Positions 3,940-16,399 of a stretch of 64,000 nucleotides of DNA are shown here, piece by piece (the first letter of the stretch is position 1; the number at the start of each line of letters is the position of its first letter). Location: the NCBI RefSeq assembly GCF_900114875.1, contig NZ_FPKW01000018.1:1-64000 (forward strand). The letters are read 5' to 3'. A program made the translations under genes and the position numbers. The DNA is from Chryseobacterium limigenitum (GTDB lineage Bacteria; Bacteroidota; Bacteroidia; Flavobacteriales; Weeksellaceae). The notes under the pieces were generated by a model. The model had not been told where the DNA came from and did not search any database. It saw nothing but the letters and a program-made list of their open reading frames with translations.

Positions 3940-4020
3940 CAAATACCCTAGCCCCGATTGCAGTGAAAATCCTTTTTTGAAAAAAAAGATTGCAACGGAA
4001 AGCGGGATTAAGCTCCTAAA
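3940..4020 (+). ncRNA. Possible flavo-1-like structured RNA
   Basis: The stretch has TAGCCCCGATTGCAGTG at 3950-3966, a central CTTTTTT/AAAAAAG hairpin (about 3972-3989) and GCGGGATTAAGCTCC at 4002-4016. CCCG can pair with CGGG and AGC with GCT, closing a multi-part stem. From memory, this TAGCCCCGAT...AGCGGGAxxAGCTCC signature is extremely common between genes of Flavobacteriia and resembles the flavo-1 RNA motif. It ends 18 bases before the dienelactone-hydrolase start. A covariance-model search would be needed to confirm it. Confidence 0.5.
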
Positions 4021-9726: not shown

Positions 9727-12700
9727 TTACATCGTCTCCATTTTGAAACTCATACTTTCAATCACTTTAAGAATTGCTTCCACCGTATCCATTGATGTTA
9801 AACAAGGAACTCCGTTTTCAACACTCATTCTTCTGATCTGGAAACCGTCTCTTTCAGACTGTTTTCCTTTCGTCATGGTATTGACAACATACTGAACTTT
9901 TCCTTTTTGGATAAGATCAATTAAGTTAACGCTGTCCTCTCCGATTTTGTATCCGATCTTACAAGGAATCCCCTGTTCTGCAAAGAATTTTGCGGTCCCT
10001 TCCGTTGCCCAGATTCTGAAACCAACTTCATGGAACCTTGCTGCCAAATCAGCTGCTTCCTGCTTGTGTTTATCAGCTACCGTGAACAAAATTGATCCGT
10101 GCATCGGAACTTTTCTTCCGGCTGCAACCAATCCTTTGTACAATGCTTTTTCCAACGTTGTATCTTTCCCCATAACCTCTCCTGTAGACTTCATTTCTGG
10201 GCCTAGGGAGATATCAACTTTCGTTAATTTAGAGAAAGAAAATACAGGAACTTTTACATAAACTCCTTCTTTGTTTGGAACCAATCCGTTTTTGTACCCT
10301 AAATCTTTCAGTTTCTGACCCAAAATAGCTTTTGTAGCAAGGTTGGCCATCGGAACTTCCGTGATCTTAGATAAGAAAGGAACTGTTCTTGATGAACGTG
10401 GATTTACTTCGATCACGTAAACATTACCATCCAATAAAACATATTGAATATTCATTAATCCAATCACATTCAATCCTTTAGCTAATCTTTGAGTGTAATC
10501 TACCAAAGTATCGATTTCTGCCTGAGTAACATTTTGTGGCGGATATACTGCGATTGAATCCCCAGAGTGAACTCCGGCTCTTTCGATATGCTCCATAATT
10601 CCCGGAATCACAACTGTTTCACCGTCGCAAATTGCGTCTACTTCAACCTCTTTTCCTGTGATATAACGGTCTACTAAAACCGGCTGATCAGGACTTGCAT
10701 CTACAGCGAACTCCATATAGTGAGCTAATTCTGCTTCAGTGTAAACAATTTCCATTGCTCTACCTCCCAAAACGTAGCTTGGACGAACTAAAACCGGATA
10801 TCCAATTTCGTTAGCAATTTTTATCGCTTCTTCTTTTGAAGTTGAAGTTTTTCCTAAAGGCTGAGGAATCCCCATTTCCTGAAGGGCTTTTTCAAACTTA
10901 TCTCTGTTTTCAGCTCTGTCAAGATCTTCCAATGAAGTTCCTAGGATTTTCACTCCGTAACTTGCCAATTTATCAGCTAAATTGATCGCTGTTTGTCCAC
11001 CGAACTGAACAACAACTCCCATTGGTTTTTCAAGGTCGATGATGCTCATTACATCTTCTTCCGTTAAAGGTTCGAAGTATAATTTATCTGAAATTGAGAA
11101 GTCTGTAGAAACTGTTTCAGGGTTATTATTGATGATAATCGCTTCATAACCCAATTCTTTGATCGCCCAAACCGAGTGAACGGTTGCGTAATCAAACTCA
11201 ACTCCCTGCCCGATTCTGATAGGCCCGGAACCTAAAACGATGATTTTTTCTTTATCTGTAACGATACTTTCGTTTTCCTCTTCGTAAGTTCCGTAGAAAT
11301 ATGGGGTTTCGCTTTCAAATTCAGCAGCACAAGTGTCTACCATTTTGTAAACCGGAATTACGCCGTTCTCTTTTCTGAAGTTGTACACTTCTCTTTGAGT
11401 AGACTCCCATAAGTGAGCGATATTCTGATCCGAGAAACCTAATTTTTTAGACTGAATTAAAATTTCTTTGTCGAATTTATGAGCGGCAATTGTTTTTTCG
11501 AAATCAACTAATTTCTTTAATTTCCAGATGAAGAATTTATCAATTTTACTCCATTCTACGATTTGTTCCCAGTCGTAACCTCTTCTTAAAGCGTCACAAA
11601 TGATGAACAATCTTTCGTCATCACAAACTCTGATTCTTCTTTCGATATCCTCGTCTGTTAAAGCTGCAGCCTGTTTTGTTTTTAAGCCTAAATGTCTCAA
11701 GCCTGTTTCCAGAGAACGAACGGCTTTTTGTAAAGACTCTTCAAAATTTCTTCCGATTGCCATTACTTCTCCCGTTGCTTTCATCTGAGTCGACAATCTT
11801 CTGTCAGCCGTTTCAAATTTATCGAATGGGAATCTTGGGAATTTAGTTACTACATAATCTAAAGCCGGTTCAAAACAAGCGTATGTTTTACCTGTAACCG
11901 GATTCATAATTTCATCTAAAGTTAATCCAACTGCGATTTTAGCAGCAATTTTAGCAATCGGATATCCTGTTGCTTTTGATGCTAAAGCTGATGAACGAGA
12001 AACTCTCGGGTTAACTTCGATGATATAATATTCGAATGAATGTGGATCTAGAGCCAACTGTACGTTACATCCTCCTTCAATTCCTAATGCTCTGATGATC
12101 TTTAATGAAGCATTTCTCAATAACTGATACTCTCTGTCTGAAAGTGTCTGAGAAGGCGCAACAACGATCGAGTCACCTGTGTGAACTCCAACCGGATCTA
12201 TATTTTCCATGTTACAAACCACAATCGCATTGTCATTTGCATCACGCATTACTTCATACTCAATTTCCTTGAAACCTGCGATTGATCTTTCGATAAGACA
12301 TTGAGTAACCGGGCTATATTTTAGTCCTAATTCTGCAATTTCTTTTAACTCAGCTTCAGTGGCAGCGATACCACCTCCTGTTCCACCCATTGTGAAGGCA
12401 GGACGAACAATTACCGGATAACCAATTTCATTTGCAAAATTAATTGCTCCTTCAACTGTTGTTACGATGTCGGATTCAGGAACGGGTTCATTTAATTCTC
12501 TCATTAATTCACGGAACAAATCTCTGTCTTCCGCTCTGTTGATCGCAGAAAGTTTAGTTCCAAGAACCTCAACTTTACATTCTTCAAGAATTCCTGATTT
12601 TTCCAATTCTACCGCCATATTCAACCCCGTTTGCCCACCAAGTGTCGGTAAAAGTGCATCCGGACGCTCTTTTCTGATGATGTGACTTACAAACTGAAGT

Positions 12701-12906
12701 GAAATCGGCTCGATATATACTTTATCAGCGATTTCAACATCCGTCATAATCGTTGCAGGGTTTGAATTAATCAAAATCACCTTGTACCCTTCTTCTCTCA
12801 AAGACAGACAAGCCTGCGTTCCCGCGTAATCGAATTCTGCTGCCTGACCTATAATGATTGGTCCTGAACCGATTACTAAAATTGTTTTTATGTCGTTTCT
12901 TTTCAT
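9727..12906 (-). CDS. carB: Carbamoyl-phosphate synthase large subunit
   Basis: This 1059-residue enzyme makes carbamoyl phosphate from bicarbonate, ammonia and two ATP, feeding both PyrB and ArgF'. The two homologous ATP-grasp halves are visible: [20 protein letters not shown] at residues about 11-30 and [18 protein letters not shown] at about 557. Each is followed by a nucleotide-binding GGTGGGIA or GGRAMEIV region and an N-P-R-x-S-R-S/T motif ([28 protein letters not shown]). The C-terminal regulatory domain begins near residue 935. It is the last gene of the pyr operon, separated from carA by a transposase gene and palindromes. Confidence 0.97.
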
Positions 12907-12926
12907 TTTTTTTCTTTTTTATTATT

Positions 12927-13077
12927 CCATGGATTGCATCCGTGGCTATTATTATTGAACCATTTCATGGTTCAGTTTTCTCTTTGCACAGCCACGAAGT
13001 GGCTGAATTTTAATAGCCGTAGGTGAAACCTATGGATTGGATAATTAAATCATTCCAACAACCCATAAAATGGGTTG
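12927..13077. repeat. Array of five REP-like palindromes downstream of the RAYT gene
   Basis: Five small hairpins follow one another: 12927-12945 (CCATGGAT-TGC-ATCCGTGG), 12956-12974 (TGAACCAT-TTC-ATGGTTCA), 12989-13005 (CAGCCAC-GAA-GTGGCTG), 13017-13035 (CCGTAGGT-GAA-ACCTATGG) and 13059-13077 (CAACCCAT-AAA-ATGGGTTG). Arms are 7-8 bp and loops three bases, mostly TTC or its complement GAA. The arm sequences differ, but pairing is kept. Pairs are joined by a CTATTATTAT-type linker. Confidence 0.85.
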
Positions 13078-13085
13078 AATATTAT

Positions 13086-13532
13086 TTACCACAGATATTT
13101 TTCATCAAGTTCAACTCCATGAGATTTTAGCAAATTCTTATATTCATCCTCAAAAGATTCAGTTTTATGATGCTCTTTTTGATTTTTAATATAATTCATG
13201 ATCACATCTTTTTCTCTTTCCGAATAAGTAAATGCACCGTAACCACTTTGCCATTCTTCAAAATCAGGAAAAAGTCCGCTTTGCTTTATCCACAAGTTGC
13301 TTGAAACCTTAATATCTTTTACAAAACTGCTTAAAGAAACTGATGGATGTAAATCTGTAAATAAATGAATATGATCCGGCATTCCATTAATCCTATAAAG
13401 TTTGCAGTTTTTATTCTTGACAATTCCCCAAATATATTTATATAATTGATCTTCATGTTCAATATTCAACACAGGTTTTCTATGCTTCGTACTAAATACA
13501 ATCTGATAATATATTTGGCGAAATGTTGACAT
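13086..13532 (-). CDS. REP-associated tyrosine transposase (RAYT, Y1/HUH family)
   Basis: This 148-residue protein resembles TnpA of IS200/IS605. It has the HUH motif MPDHIHLFTD (His54, His56) and the catalytic tyrosine in IMNYIKNQKEHH (Tyr114, with Gln118 one helical turn on). Single-strand DNA cleavage and joining at hairpins is the family activity. The start is set at the ATG at 13530-13532 (MSTFRQIYYQIVFSTKHRKP); the frame upstream runs into a palindrome. No tnpB accompanies it. It sits between carB and carA, in the same direction, flanked on both sides by small palindromes, which is the typical RAYT arrangement. Confidence 0.9.
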   Translation of the reverse strand: MSTFRQIYYQIVFSTKHRKPVLNIEHEDQLYKYIWGIVKNKNCKLYRINGMPDHIHLFTDLHPSVSLSSFVKDIKVSSNLWIKQSGLFPDFEEWQSGYGAFTYSEREKDVIMNYIKNQKEHHKTESFEDEYKNLLKSHGVELDEKYLW

Positions 13533-13550
13533 TTTTCTTATTTTTCTTTC

Positions 13551-13631
13551 CACGGATTTCAATCCATGTTATTTTTATTTCATTCCATAAGTTTCACCTA
13601 TGGCTATTATTGTTGAACCACTTCGTGGTTC
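13551..13631. repeat. Three REP-like palindromes upstream of the RAYT gene
   Basis: Hairpins lie at 13551-13568 (CACGGATT/AATCCATG, one mismatch), 13585-13603 (CCATAAGT-TTC-ACCTATGG, one mismatch) and 13615-13631 (GAACCAC-TTC-GTGGTTC, perfect). The last two are separated by CTATTATTGTT, the same linker type as at 12946-12955. The first is nearly the inverse of the 12927 palindrome, so the RAYT gene is bracketed by inverted copies. Confidence 0.85.
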
Positions 13632-13639
13632 TCCTTTAT

Positions 13640-14713
13640 TTACTTTTTGAAATCCTCCATTAAAGTGATGAAATCATCAAATAAGTAGTTTGCATCTTCA
13701 GGACCTGGACTAGCTTCCGGATGATACTGAACTGAAAAACAAGGGTGAATTTTGTGTTTCAGACCTTCGTTTGTTCTGTCATTCAGCGCGATATGTGTTT
13801 CAATTAAATCTGTCCCTTTCAAACTTTCCTGATCAACAGCGTAACCGTGGTTTTGAGAAGTGATTGCTACTTTGTTTTTCTCTAAATCTAAAACAGGGTG
13901 ATTTCCTCCTCTGTGACCGAATTTTAACTTGAAAGTTTTCGCTCCACAAGCCAACCCGATTAATTGGTGTCCTAAACAGATTCCGAAGATCGGAACTTTT
14001 CCTAATAATCCGCGGATCATTTCCAACGCTTGTTGATTGTCTTCAGGGTCACCAGGCCCGTTTGACAACATGATTCCGTCCGGATCCATTAATAAAATCT
14101 CTTCTGCTGTTGTATTATGAGAAACAACGGTGATGTCGCAGTTCCTTTGAGATAATTCTCTGATAATCCCTAATTTAGATCCAAAATCTACCAACACAAC
14201 TTTCAAACCTCTACCCGGATTTGCATAAGAAGTTTTTGTAGAAACTGTTTCCACTTGATTTGTTGGGAATGTTGTGCCTTTTAATTCTGCTACAACTGCA
14301 TTTTCGTCGGCATCAGCATTTACAATTTTGCCTTTTACTACTCCGGAATTACGTAGAATTCTGGTCAGTCTTCTTGTATCAATTCCTGAAATTCCTGAAA
14401 GGTTTTTCTTTTTAAATAATTCATCTAAAGTAATCTGAGTACGGAAATTTGAAGGCAAATCACAAACTTCTTTTACAATAAGACCTTTGATAGCCGGCTC
14501 AATACTCTCATAATCATCTCTATTAATTCCATAGTTTCCGATCAGCGGATAAGTCATACAAACAATCTGACCGCAATATGATGGATCAGAAATCAATTCT
14601 TGATAACCCGTCATTCCGGTATTGAAAACCACCTCTCCTGCAGTCTCCAATTCTGTTCCGAAACCTTCTCCATGAAACACTTCACCGGATTCCAGTATTA
14701 ACTTTTTCTTCAT
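13640..14713 (-). CDS. carA: Carbamoyl-phosphate synthase small (glutaminase) subunit
   Basis: The 357-residue subunit hydrolyses glutamine and channels ammonia to CarB. The N-terminal domain starts KLILESGEVFHGEGFG. The C-terminal class I amidotransferase domain has the nucleophile elbow GICLGHQ (Cys246) and the HPE dyad (His331, Glu333) in QYHPEASPGP. Length matches the family. It is the second cistron after pyrB. The gap to carB holds a RAYT gene and eight hairpins, so carB expression may depend on read-through or an internal promoter. Confidence 0.97.
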   Translation of the reverse strand: MKKKLILESGEVFHGEGFGTELETAGEVVFNTGMTGYQELISDPSYCGQIVCMTYPLIGNYGINRDDYESIEPAIKGLIVKEVCDLPSNFRTQITLDELFKKKNLSGISGIDTRRLTRILRNSGVVKGKIVNADADENAVVAELKGTTFPTNQVETVSTKTSYANPGRGLKVVLVDFGSKLGIIRELSQRNCDITVVSHNTTAEEILLMDPDGIMLSNGPGDPEDNQQALEMIRGLLGKVPIFGICLGHQLIGLACGAKTFKLKFGHRGGNHPVLDLEKNKVAITSQNHGYAVDQESLKGTDLIETHIALNDRTNEGLKHKIHPCFSVQYHPEASPGPEDANYLFDDFITLMEDFKK

Positions 14714-14802: not shown

Positions 14803-15693
14803 TTATTTAAAAGTATATCCTTCTTTTTCTAAGGCTTCTTTTAAAATGGCCATTCTTGCGAAGACTCCGTTCTGCATTTGTTTGAAAACTCTTGAACGTT
14901 CGCATTCTACTAAGTCTGTATCAATCTCAACTCCTCTGTTGATAGGTGCCGGATGCATGATGATGGCTTCTTTTTTCATCGCTTTTTCTCTTTCTTTCGT
15001 CAAACCATATTTTCTATGGTAATCTGAAGCGGAGAAACTCATTTTTGCATCGTGCCTTTCGTGCTGTATTCTTAGCAACATTAAAACATCAACATCTTTT
15101 ATCATTTCATCTACAGAAAGATATGTTCCATTAATTAAAGCGCCTTCGTCAAACCATTGTTCAGGTCCAGAGAAGTAAACTTTTGCGCCTAATCTTCTTA
15201 ATGCTTCAGCATTTGAATTGGCAACCCGGCTGTGTTTTACATCACCTACGATCCCTACTTTTAAGCCTTCAAATTTTCCAAATTCCTGATAAATTGTCAG
15301 CAAATCCAGCATACATTGAGATGGGTGATTTCCTGTTCCGTCTCCTCCGTTGATGACAGGAATTTTAATGTTTTCTAATTCATCAAAATATCTGTCTTTC
15401 TTGTCTCTTATTACAACTAGGTTTATTCCTAAACTTTCAATTGTTTTTACCGTATCATAAAGACTTTCCCCTTTGTTTACCGAACTGTGAGATGCATCGA
15501 AGGGAACCACCTGCAATCCTAATTTTCTTTCGGCAATATCAAAACTTGTTTTCGTTCTTGTACTGTCCTCAAAAAAGAGATTTGAGCAAAAAACTTCTCC
15601 TTCAATTTTGGCAGTTTTTCCATTCGCAAAAGCCATCGCTTCAGCCAGTATACTGTTGATTCTCTCGGTGCTTAGTTCTGTAATAGTAAACAT
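14803..15693 (-). CDS. pyrB: Aspartate carbamoyltransferase catalytic subunit
   Basis: The 296-residue enzyme forms N-carbamoylaspartate. The carbamoyl-phosphate loop is [12 protein letters not shown] (Ser44-Thr45-Arg46-Thr47), and the C-terminal half has LLRIQHERH and [12 protein letters not shown]. At 296 residues it is slightly shorter than E. coli PyrB. No pyrI gene follows, so allosteric control by a regulatory chain is not evident here; control more likely acts on the transcript leader at 15694-15826. The start ATG at 15691-15693 lies about 19 bases after the terminator T-run. Confidence 0.96.
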
Positions 15694-15712
15694 AATATCT
15701 TAAATTTTTCAC

Positions 15713-15742
15713 AAAAAAAAAGCGAAGAAAATATCTTCGCTT
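15713..15742 (-). terminator. Intrinsic terminator (putative attenuator) in the pyrB leader
   Basis: On the minus strand AAGCGAAGA (15742-15734) pairs perfectly over 9 bp with TCTTCGCTT (15728-15720) around a TATTT loop and is followed by an unbroken T run (15721-15713). It lies between the promoter and pyrB, two bases after the stop codon of a short leader ORF, so it would terminate transcription before pyrB unless something prevents folding. Confidence 0.85.
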
Positions 15743-15743
15743 A

Positions 15744-15812
15744 CTATAAATAAATATCGTAAAGGGCGTCTACGCCCGGTAATTCTAATGATATAAATAC
15801 TGTGTTATTCAT
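15744..15812 (-). CDS. Putative leader peptide of the pyrB operon (22 codons)
   Basis: An ATG at 15812 opens a 22-codon frame, starting MNNTVFIS and ending LYDIYL, that stops with TAG at 15744-15746, two bases before the attenuator stem. A second hairpin, GGGCG-TAGA-CGCCC (15777-15764), falls inside the frame and could pause RNA polymerase. The stretch between it and the stop is U-rich in the RNA. This is the arrangement of the enterobacterial pyrL-pyrBI leader: a ribosome close behind polymerase would cover the 5' arm of the terminator. The start codon lies only 6 bases after the -7 element, so translation would be leaderless or nearly so. Expression is not proven. Confidence 0.6.
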   Translation of the reverse strand: MNNTVFISLELPGVDALYDIYL

Positions 15813-15818
15813 TAGGTG

Positions 15819-15850
15819 CAAAGATACAATAAATTCTGAAACTGACAAAA
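15819..15850 (-). promoter_or_regulatory. Bacteroidota promoter of the pyrB operon
   Basis: On the minus strand the -7 element TATCTTTG (15819-15826) matches TAnnTTTG exactly, and TTTTG (15846-15850) lies 19 bases upstream as the -33 element. It drives the leader ORF, attenuator and pyrB. Confidence 0.8.
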
Positions 15851-15917: not shown

Positions 15918-15937
15918 TTAAAACTCAAACCTTGTTT

Positions 15938-16399
15938 ATGGACTTAAAAGACAAAATGATTCTCAGCATCATTCAGGAGGACTCTACTTATTCTGTGAAA
16001 GACATTTCAGAAAAGATTGGTCTTACCTTCACTCCGACCTATGAAAGAATCAAACAATTAGAGAAACAAGGAATTATCGAGAAATATGTAGGGCTTTTGA
16101 ACCGCGAAAAACTGGGTTTAAATATTGTTGTTTATTGCAACGTGCGTCTCAAGGAACAGTCTAAAAAAGTATTGGAAACGTTCGAGAAAAACATCATGCA
16201 GTATGATGAAGTTCAGGAAATTATCAGTCTTTCCGGCGAATACGATTATATGCTGAAAATCATTGCAAAGGATATCAACTCTTATAATGAATTTGCGGTC
16301 AATATTATTTCAAATATCCCTAATATCGGGCAATATCACAGTTCTATTGTTCTTCACGAAGTTAAAAAATCTACTAAGTTTAAGATTGATTTGGGATAA
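15938..16399 (+). CDS. Lrp/AsnC-family transcriptional regulator
   Basis: The 153-residue protein has an N-terminal winged helix-turn-helix (MDLKDKMILSIIQEDSTYSV, then KDISEKIGLTFTPTYERIKQ) and a C-terminal RAM/ACT-like effector domain containing LSGEYDYMLKIIAKDINSYN, a standard Lrp/AsnC motif. The ATG at 15938 is preferred to the TTG at 15932. It lies divergent to pyrB and next to the arginine operon. Control of one of these, with an amino acid as ligand, is an attractive inference but not shown by sequence. Confidence 0.93.
   Translation: MDLKDKMILSIIQEDSTYSVKDISEKIGLTFTPTYERIKQLEKQGIIEKYVGLLNREKLGLNIVVYCNVRLKEQSKKVLETFEKNIMQYDEVQEIISLSGEYDYMLKIIAKDINSYNEFAVNIISNIPNIGQYHSSIVLHEVKKSTKFKIDLG

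Follow-up and report, generated by a model that had tools for sequence, protein, structure and literature searches.

A leader ahead of pyrB-carA-carB in Chryseobacterium and related genera: a probable UTP-sensing, ribosome-coupled transcription attenuator

The pyrB-carA-carB genes of Chryseobacterium limigenitum are preceded by a leader whose architecture was confirmed as real, and which probably acts as a ribosome-coupled, UTP-sensing transcription attenuator working like that of E. coli pyrBI. The leader is on the minus strand of the analysed window, a stretch of 64,000 nucleotides (contig NZ_FPKW01000018.1, positions 1 to 64,000). An earlier note on this DNA had described a promoter, a 22-codon ORF, a GGGCG-TAGA-CGCCC hairpin, a U-rich stretch, a terminator and pyrB, and inspection of the sequence located each of them where it had been described. 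The parts, their spacing and the open frame can be read directly from the sequence, and comparison of sequences gave no detectable antiterminator and no PyrR.

The −7 promoter box TATCTTTG (TAnnTTTG) was identified at 15819–15826, separated by CACCTA (6 nt) from the leader ATG at 15812. From the position of the box, transcription is predicted to start at about 15814, 2 nt before the leader ATG, with a 5′UTR of about 2 nt; this placement follows Flavobacterium psychrophilum, in which the TAnnTTTG box is found at −12 to −5 according to PMC9723704. The leader ORF (MNNTVFISLELPGVDALYDIYL) occupies 15744–15812 and comprises 22 codons, as judged from sequence and translation, followed by TAG (15746–15744). 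Folding indicated a 5′ hairpin with the start codon, P1 (CUAAUGAAUAA / UUAU-A-UCAUUAG), at 15785–15815, and folding energy compared with that of shuffles indicated a second hairpin within the ORF, P2 (GGGCG-UAGA-CGCCC), at 15764–15777, which is the putative pause hairpin. The U-rich tract ATATTTATTTAT (RNA AUAUUUAUUUAU) at 15746–15757 was delimited by its U fraction and is the putative UTP-sensitive pause region. An intrinsic terminator with a 9-bp stem, a 5-nt loop and a T run was found in the sequence at 15713–15742, the nine pairs being formed by AAGCGAAGA/TCTTCGCTT at 15742–15720. Two details of the first description had to be amended: the stop codon does lie just before the stem, at a distance of one base and not two, and the 9-bp stem was found as described, with two of the T residues of the T9 run inside the stem and not after it. 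P1, the near-leaderless transcript predicted here and the nucleotide-level conservation in Chryseobacterium are absent from that first description.

All three downstream genes, also on the minus strand, were above the cut-offs of their families: pyrB, encoding aspartate carbamoyltransferase, at 14803–15693 with its ATG at 15693 (NF002032, 356.9 bits, cut-off 263); carA, for the small subunit of carbamoyl phosphate synthase, at 13640–14713 (NF009475, 484.5 bits, cut-off 221); and carB, for the large subunit, at 9727–12906 (NF003671, 1626 bits, cut-off 599). The gap between carA and carB (12907–13639) contains an IS200/IS605-family transposase gene (13086–13562; NF033573, over cut-off), surrounded by several short terminator-like inverted repeats, and this region may interrupt or insulate the operon. 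A gene for an Lrp/AsnC-like regulator (15932–16399, plus strand; best match NF008370, below cut-off) is divergent from the pyr promoter, on which its product might also act. Elsewhere in the window, a Flavo-1 RNA (RF01705, 70 bits), a motif of unclear function, was found at 3946–4013 of the plus strand.

The combination of parts is more than a chance arrangement. The scan pattern comprised the box, 5–6 nt, an ATG, an ORF of more than 15 codons and a terminator stem 45–110 nt from the ATG, the stop codon being at most 10 nt before the start of the stem or beyond it. The full pattern matched once in the window and not at all in 40 shuffled windows; in 80 related loci (691,039 nt) it gave 80 matches at the leader and none elsewhere. 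The leader RNA, from AAUG to the T run, was more stable than 200 of 200 shuffles (z −3.9), and its predicted fold consists of P1 with the AUG, then P2, then the terminator.

The genus set was made up of the best 80 of 153 relatives, 79 of them titled Chryseobacterium and one a Weeksellaceae MAG. The leader layout preceded pyrB in all 80 loci with the ORF open in every one, and the conservation of ORF and terminator in close relatives, on which the earlier note had staked its proposal, was thus observed in 80/80 kept pyrB loci. When 320 family genomes were searched with a covariance model of the 67-nt core, 172 of the 173 genus members gave matches, whose location before pyrB was checked only among the matches listed; the single genus genome that was missed is 73% complete. 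The core is near-invariant in Chryseobacterium: its mean pairwise identity is 0.94, whereas pyrB reaches 0.63 at third positions and the sequence preceding the promoter 0.55 (ungapped). Within the leader, the third codon position was as conserved (0.93) as the first two (0.935), and the variation was concentrated in two hairpin loops (identity 0.77 and 0.61), which indicates that in this genus it is the nucleic acid, and not the peptide, that is under selection. Peptide-specific control was rejected on the same figures and because the peptide differs between genera.

Two other weak leader matches were found in the window's own genome, and the likeness at L003 is a terminator after another gene. 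When model R2 was run on 295 genomes of the class, strong matches were confined to the window's own genome and two others of the genus; the remaining 7 of the 10 matches were at chance level (E 0.03–0.09). Among additional R2 matches within the family, those in G290, G099 and G403 look like ordinary gene-end terminators.

The strong nucleotide conservation in Chryseobacterium is beyond what the logic of pyrBI alone explains; so near-invariant a core seems more than a loose pausing device needs, and to that extent counts against the pyrBI-like reading. It would be expected of a structured RNA sensor, in which a metabolite or a protein would be recognized by P1, P2 and the unpaired linkers and would control the terminator without translation, as would the confinement of most variation to two hairpin loops and the stable fold of the leader. 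Such a sensor is nevertheless quite unlikely. The frame stays open across genera; P2 and the linkers change from genus to genus and only part of the leaders have P1, variation that is hard to reconcile with an aptamer. Over the set of leaders no alternative partner of the terminator was found, and Rfam 15 gave no family at gathering score in the leader region. With E values up to 10, 16 weak Rfam matches to the leader were obtained, all far below gathering. A pure aptamer, suggested by the near-invariant Chryseobacterium core, was weakened as a candidate by the other genera, which keep the layout and not the letters.

Since Chryseobacterium alone left the choice between a translated leader and a structured sensor undecided, the pyrB upstream regions of the family's other genera were compared. 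Outside the genus, 83 of 147 family genomes (80 + 3) were searched for PyrB; 17 of the 80 gave no PyrB at 1e-30, and 65 loci were obtained with G101, a fragment, left out. The box, 5–6 nt, an ATG and a terminator were found before pyrB in 60 of the 65 loci, representing 18 further genera, with the ATG 5–6 nt after the box in 60/60 leaders; 20 of the 60 come from g2 and 14 from g3. The terminators were mostly of the type ACGAAG..CTTCGT. A TTG 14–28 nt upstream of the box, the −33 distance, was present in only 27/60. All five loci without the leader belong to g52, whose different PyrB is only 51–52% identical. Upstream of pyrB in four of the five g52 genomes (L223, L225, L226 and L227), a terminator-like palindrome, AACATCTTA..TAAGATG, with a T run was seen in place of the leader; it is perhaps another attenuator or the end of the upstream gene.

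The 17 sampled genomes with no PyrB at E 1e-30 belong to g59, g61, g71, g72, g76 and g80, genera which may have no de novo pyrimidine synthesis; one of the PyrB-negative genomes, G330, is only 56% complete. PyrR was not found in the tested members of g59, g71, g72, g76 and g80, g61 being outside that test. In G398 (genus g77) a second layout was found before carB, which in this genome is set apart from pyrB-carA by at least one other ORF. It consists of TATTTTTG, an ATG, an ORF and a ATACGGAG..CTTCGTAT terminator at L256:4184-4284 (R2 match, E 6.6e-4), showed no clear P2, and may be a genuine copy of the leader.

The frame was tested with one leader per genus, the window counted (n = 19). In 18 of the 19 genera the ORF ran on to at most 11 nt short of the terminator stem or past that point, where dinucleotide shuffles gave an expectation of 5.6 (P 2e-9) and the two control frames were open in four genera each; like all probabilities in this work, this one ignores shared ancestry. 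The failing genus is represented by L177, with 18 codons and a stop 13 nt before the stem; in L200 the stop is 8 nt before the stem. In 51 of the 60 leaders of the other genera, the distance between stop codon and stem was −2 to +13 nt; in the remaining nine the ORF continues into or past the terminator, as in E. coli pyrL. That the arrangement is a leftover or constitutive one, with an accidental ORF and a terminator that merely lowers basal pyrB expression, is highly improbable in view of its retention over 19 genera and the 18 open frames against 5.6 expected.

For the RNA structures, 30 representatives were used, defined as leaders with over 15% difference from others of the same length. 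Four of the nine terminator pairs showed two-sided changes that keep the pairing. RNAalifold on a MAFFT alignment recovered the terminator only; P1 and P2 do not align by sequence, and they were therefore tested per sequence against shuffles. The part of the leader that holds P2, from within the ORF up to the terminator, was in combination more stable than shuffled sequence (Fisher P 8e-10, ignoring relatedness), although P exceeded 0.1 for 16 of the 30 leaders taken singly. Twenty-three different stem strings were found in P2, several of them with the common core GGCA/UGCC, and the sister leaders L172 and L173 have GGUA/UACC and GGCA/UGCC; L183 and L209 have a weak P2. In 24 of 29 leaders (L209 left out), the 5′ arm of P2 has its first GG in ORF frame 0, 15 of the 24 having an ATG-to-GG length of 36 nt and nine having 39, 45, 48 or 54 nt. 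The U fraction after P2 was 0.13–0.40 at +1 to +9 and 0.47–0.90 at +10 to +19, so that the anatomy of a pause region, a hairpin and then a U-rich tract, was found with U enrichment from +10. In the 13 nt directly ahead of the stem, the U fraction was 0.66 and that of A 0.26, whereas early in the ORF U stood at 0.33 and A at 0.41. The evidence for P1 was of two kinds: a stem of at least 5 bp holding the start codon was present in 21 of the 30 representatives with 11.5 expected (P 2e-4, ignoring relatedness), and the folding energy of the P1 region barely exceeded chance (Fisher P 0.038). P1 may limit the time for ribosome loading. Taken together, the 19 genera retain the ORF, the hairpin, the U-rich tract and the terminator while their sequences change, and the comparison among relatives that had been proposed as a check came out in favour of the proposal.

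PyrR (NF003549, E 1e-10) was found in none of 46 sampled genomes of the family, including the window's own, and the statement that no PyrR-type protein was visible thus held well beyond the window. Of 26 genomes sampled from the order's other families, 25 have PyrR, its gene standing beside pyrB in 25/25. The absence of antiterminator pairing, also remarked on before, was upheld over the set of 30 leaders, in which pairing with the 5′ arm of the terminator was no better than in shuffled sequences (Fisher P 0.44); L217 and L221 singly paired with the arm at P 0.01 and 0.04. The lack of excess pairing with the terminator arm implies that antiterminators of the PyrR, trp or common riboswitch type have not been kept.

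A leader ORF that ends at the terminator could also couple the ribosome to a signal other than UTP, namely charged tRNA or the overall speed of translation, in which case AT-rich codons alone would account for the U tract. This possibility draws on the best-supported parts of the leader, the ORF and the position of its stop at the stem; Ile and Phe occur in 30/30 representatives, with Ile within the last nine codons in 27, and strong clues for leader-peptide attenuation before amino-acid operons of Flavobacterium psychrophilum are reported in PMC9723704. No amino acid stands out as a control codon in the 30 representatives, however: Asp is present in 25 and Arg in 18, and the universal Ile and Phe have U-rich codons. 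Furthermore, the 30 leaders as a set show no antiterminator, U exceeds A only late in the leader, and in amino-acid attenuators the terminator is more than 20 bp away from the stop, which avoids repression, according to PMC4824070. We therefore consider a signal of this kind unlikely.

Given a stop codon next to the base of the stem, with a hairpin and U tract shortly ahead of it, attenuation that senses UTP and is coupled to translation is the simplest interpretation. The start site, translation of the ORF, pausing, dependence on UTP and the direction of regulation are predicted as follows. Transcription would begin about 2 nt ahead of the ORF; a ribosome would load at the 5′ end of the RNA and translate the 22-codon ORF behind RNA polymerase. 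Once outside the polymerase, P2 would favour pausing when the RNA 3′ end is about 10 nt beyond the hairpin, where the U-rich tract begins. With ample UTP, the polymerase would run on, the terminator about 10–14 nt downstream would fold, and transcription would end before pyrB. With scarce UTP, the polymerase would linger in the U tract, and the ribosome would catch up and melt P2. At the stop codon by the foot of the stem, the footprint of the ribosome would extend over the 5′ arm of the terminator, which could then not fold, and pyrB-carA-carB would be transcribed.

Data from E. coli bear on several of these steps. In PMC4824070, a terminator a few bp after a stop codon was repressed by the coupled ribosome, nearly fully at short distance, and in PMC5021804 suppression of the pyrL terminator required tight coupling. 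The reading of P2 as a pause hairpin is by analogy with E. coli pyrL; for the pause there, the authors of PMC9291695 report no effect of NusA and no rescue by compensatory mutants, and place the pause about 24 nt upstream of the one studied earlier.

As in E. coli pyrBI (pyrL), the leader of the family combines a short ORF, a hairpin, a U-rich tract 10 nt on and a terminator in reach of the ribosome, followed by pyrB; in E. coli (NC_000913) the hairpin GCGUCU/AGACGC is followed by 10 nt and then UUUUUCUU. The same layout is known for Salmonella pyrBI. Judged from the sequences, the ORF of the pyrBI type appears to be present in 18 of 19 genera and in 80/80 loci, and a terminator within presumed ribosome reach in 60 of 65. 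The differences are several. The E. coli pyrL ORF has 135 nt and ends past the terminator, whereas the family leaders mostly have 22–26 codons and end at the stem; the distance from hairpin to stem is 39 nt in E. coli pyrL and 16–27 nt in 29/30 family leaders. Unlike in pyrBI, the ATG of the family leader is about 2 nt from the predicted transcript end, without room for a Shine-Dalgarno site, many lineages of the family have an extra 5′ hairpin with the AUG, and the downstream genes are pyrB-carA-carB and not pyrB-pyrI. The leader peptides show no likeness by eye to the enterobacterial pyrL peptide, and an origin independent of enterobacterial pyrL seems likely, as far as can be inferred.

The rph-pyrE attenuator of E. 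coli is also modulated by UTP, the response proposed for the family leader; its ORF is the whole gene rph, in contrast to the 22-codon leader of the family. Earlier experiments, cited in PMC2784333, suggest that the distance of the stop codon from this attenuator matters, and the evolved strains of that paper had no significant rise of pyrE in earlier expression data. With trp- and his-type attenuators the family leader has the leader peptide, hairpins and terminator in common; it differs from them in having no standout control codon, no competing hairpins, and the terminator at the stop codon. The control codons together with mutually exclusive hairpins that characterize the trp type were not found. 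PyrR-dependent attenuation controls pyr operons by termination, a feature that the family leader would share without PyrR (0/46 genomes) and without an antiterminator over the set. For Bacteroides thetaiotaomicron, short ORFs reminiscent of leader peptides are reported. No description of such an attenuator of pyr genes in Bacteroidota was found in the open-access literature searched, most subscription papers being outside this coverage. As far as the sequence tells, the leader would work like pyrBI, but with a near-leaderless start, the stop at the terminator, shorter spacing and an added 5′ hairpin.

P1 has no role in the pyrBI model and counts against the pyrBI-like reading, as do the g52 loci without the leader, the stops of L177 and L200 ahead of the stem, the weak P2 of L183 and L209, the many single P2 tests above 0.1, the arm pairing of L217 and L221 and the NusA and rescue results for the E. 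coli pause. Both P1 and the replacement of PyrR would find a place in a two-gate attenuator on a near-leaderless RNA, in which P1 occludes the start codon and sets the time window, so that a ribosome can join only by loading before P1 has folded, with the polymerase still close, P2 and the U tract measure UTP, and the device replaced PyrR at the time of the family's change of pyrB-carAB; this extended scheme is conceivable, and we hold it with considerable doubt. PyrB of the family is 38–44% identical to the PyrB matches in other families of the order, most of which have pyrR beside pyrB. Among solved structures, 3r7d, 2at2 and 6pnz (329–349 bits) were far closer to the family PyrB than 1at1 (132 bits). 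We take the first three to be the Bacillus and Staphylococcus enzymes and 1at1 to be that of E. coli, and such a relationship would fit a history in which the family exchanged pyrR-pyrB for an acquired pyrB-carA-carB and the attenuator became the new control.

If the UTP-sensing, ribosome-coupled reading is true, pyrB would be governed throughout the family by an attenuator that needs no regulatory protein, in contrast to the PyrR of its relatives. It would also provide evidence for coupling of ribosome and RNA polymerase in the Bacteroidota, a phylum without ordinary Shine-Dalgarno starts, and the scores of natural variants in hairpin, U tract, ORF and terminator would allow direct tests of the pausing and coupling model.
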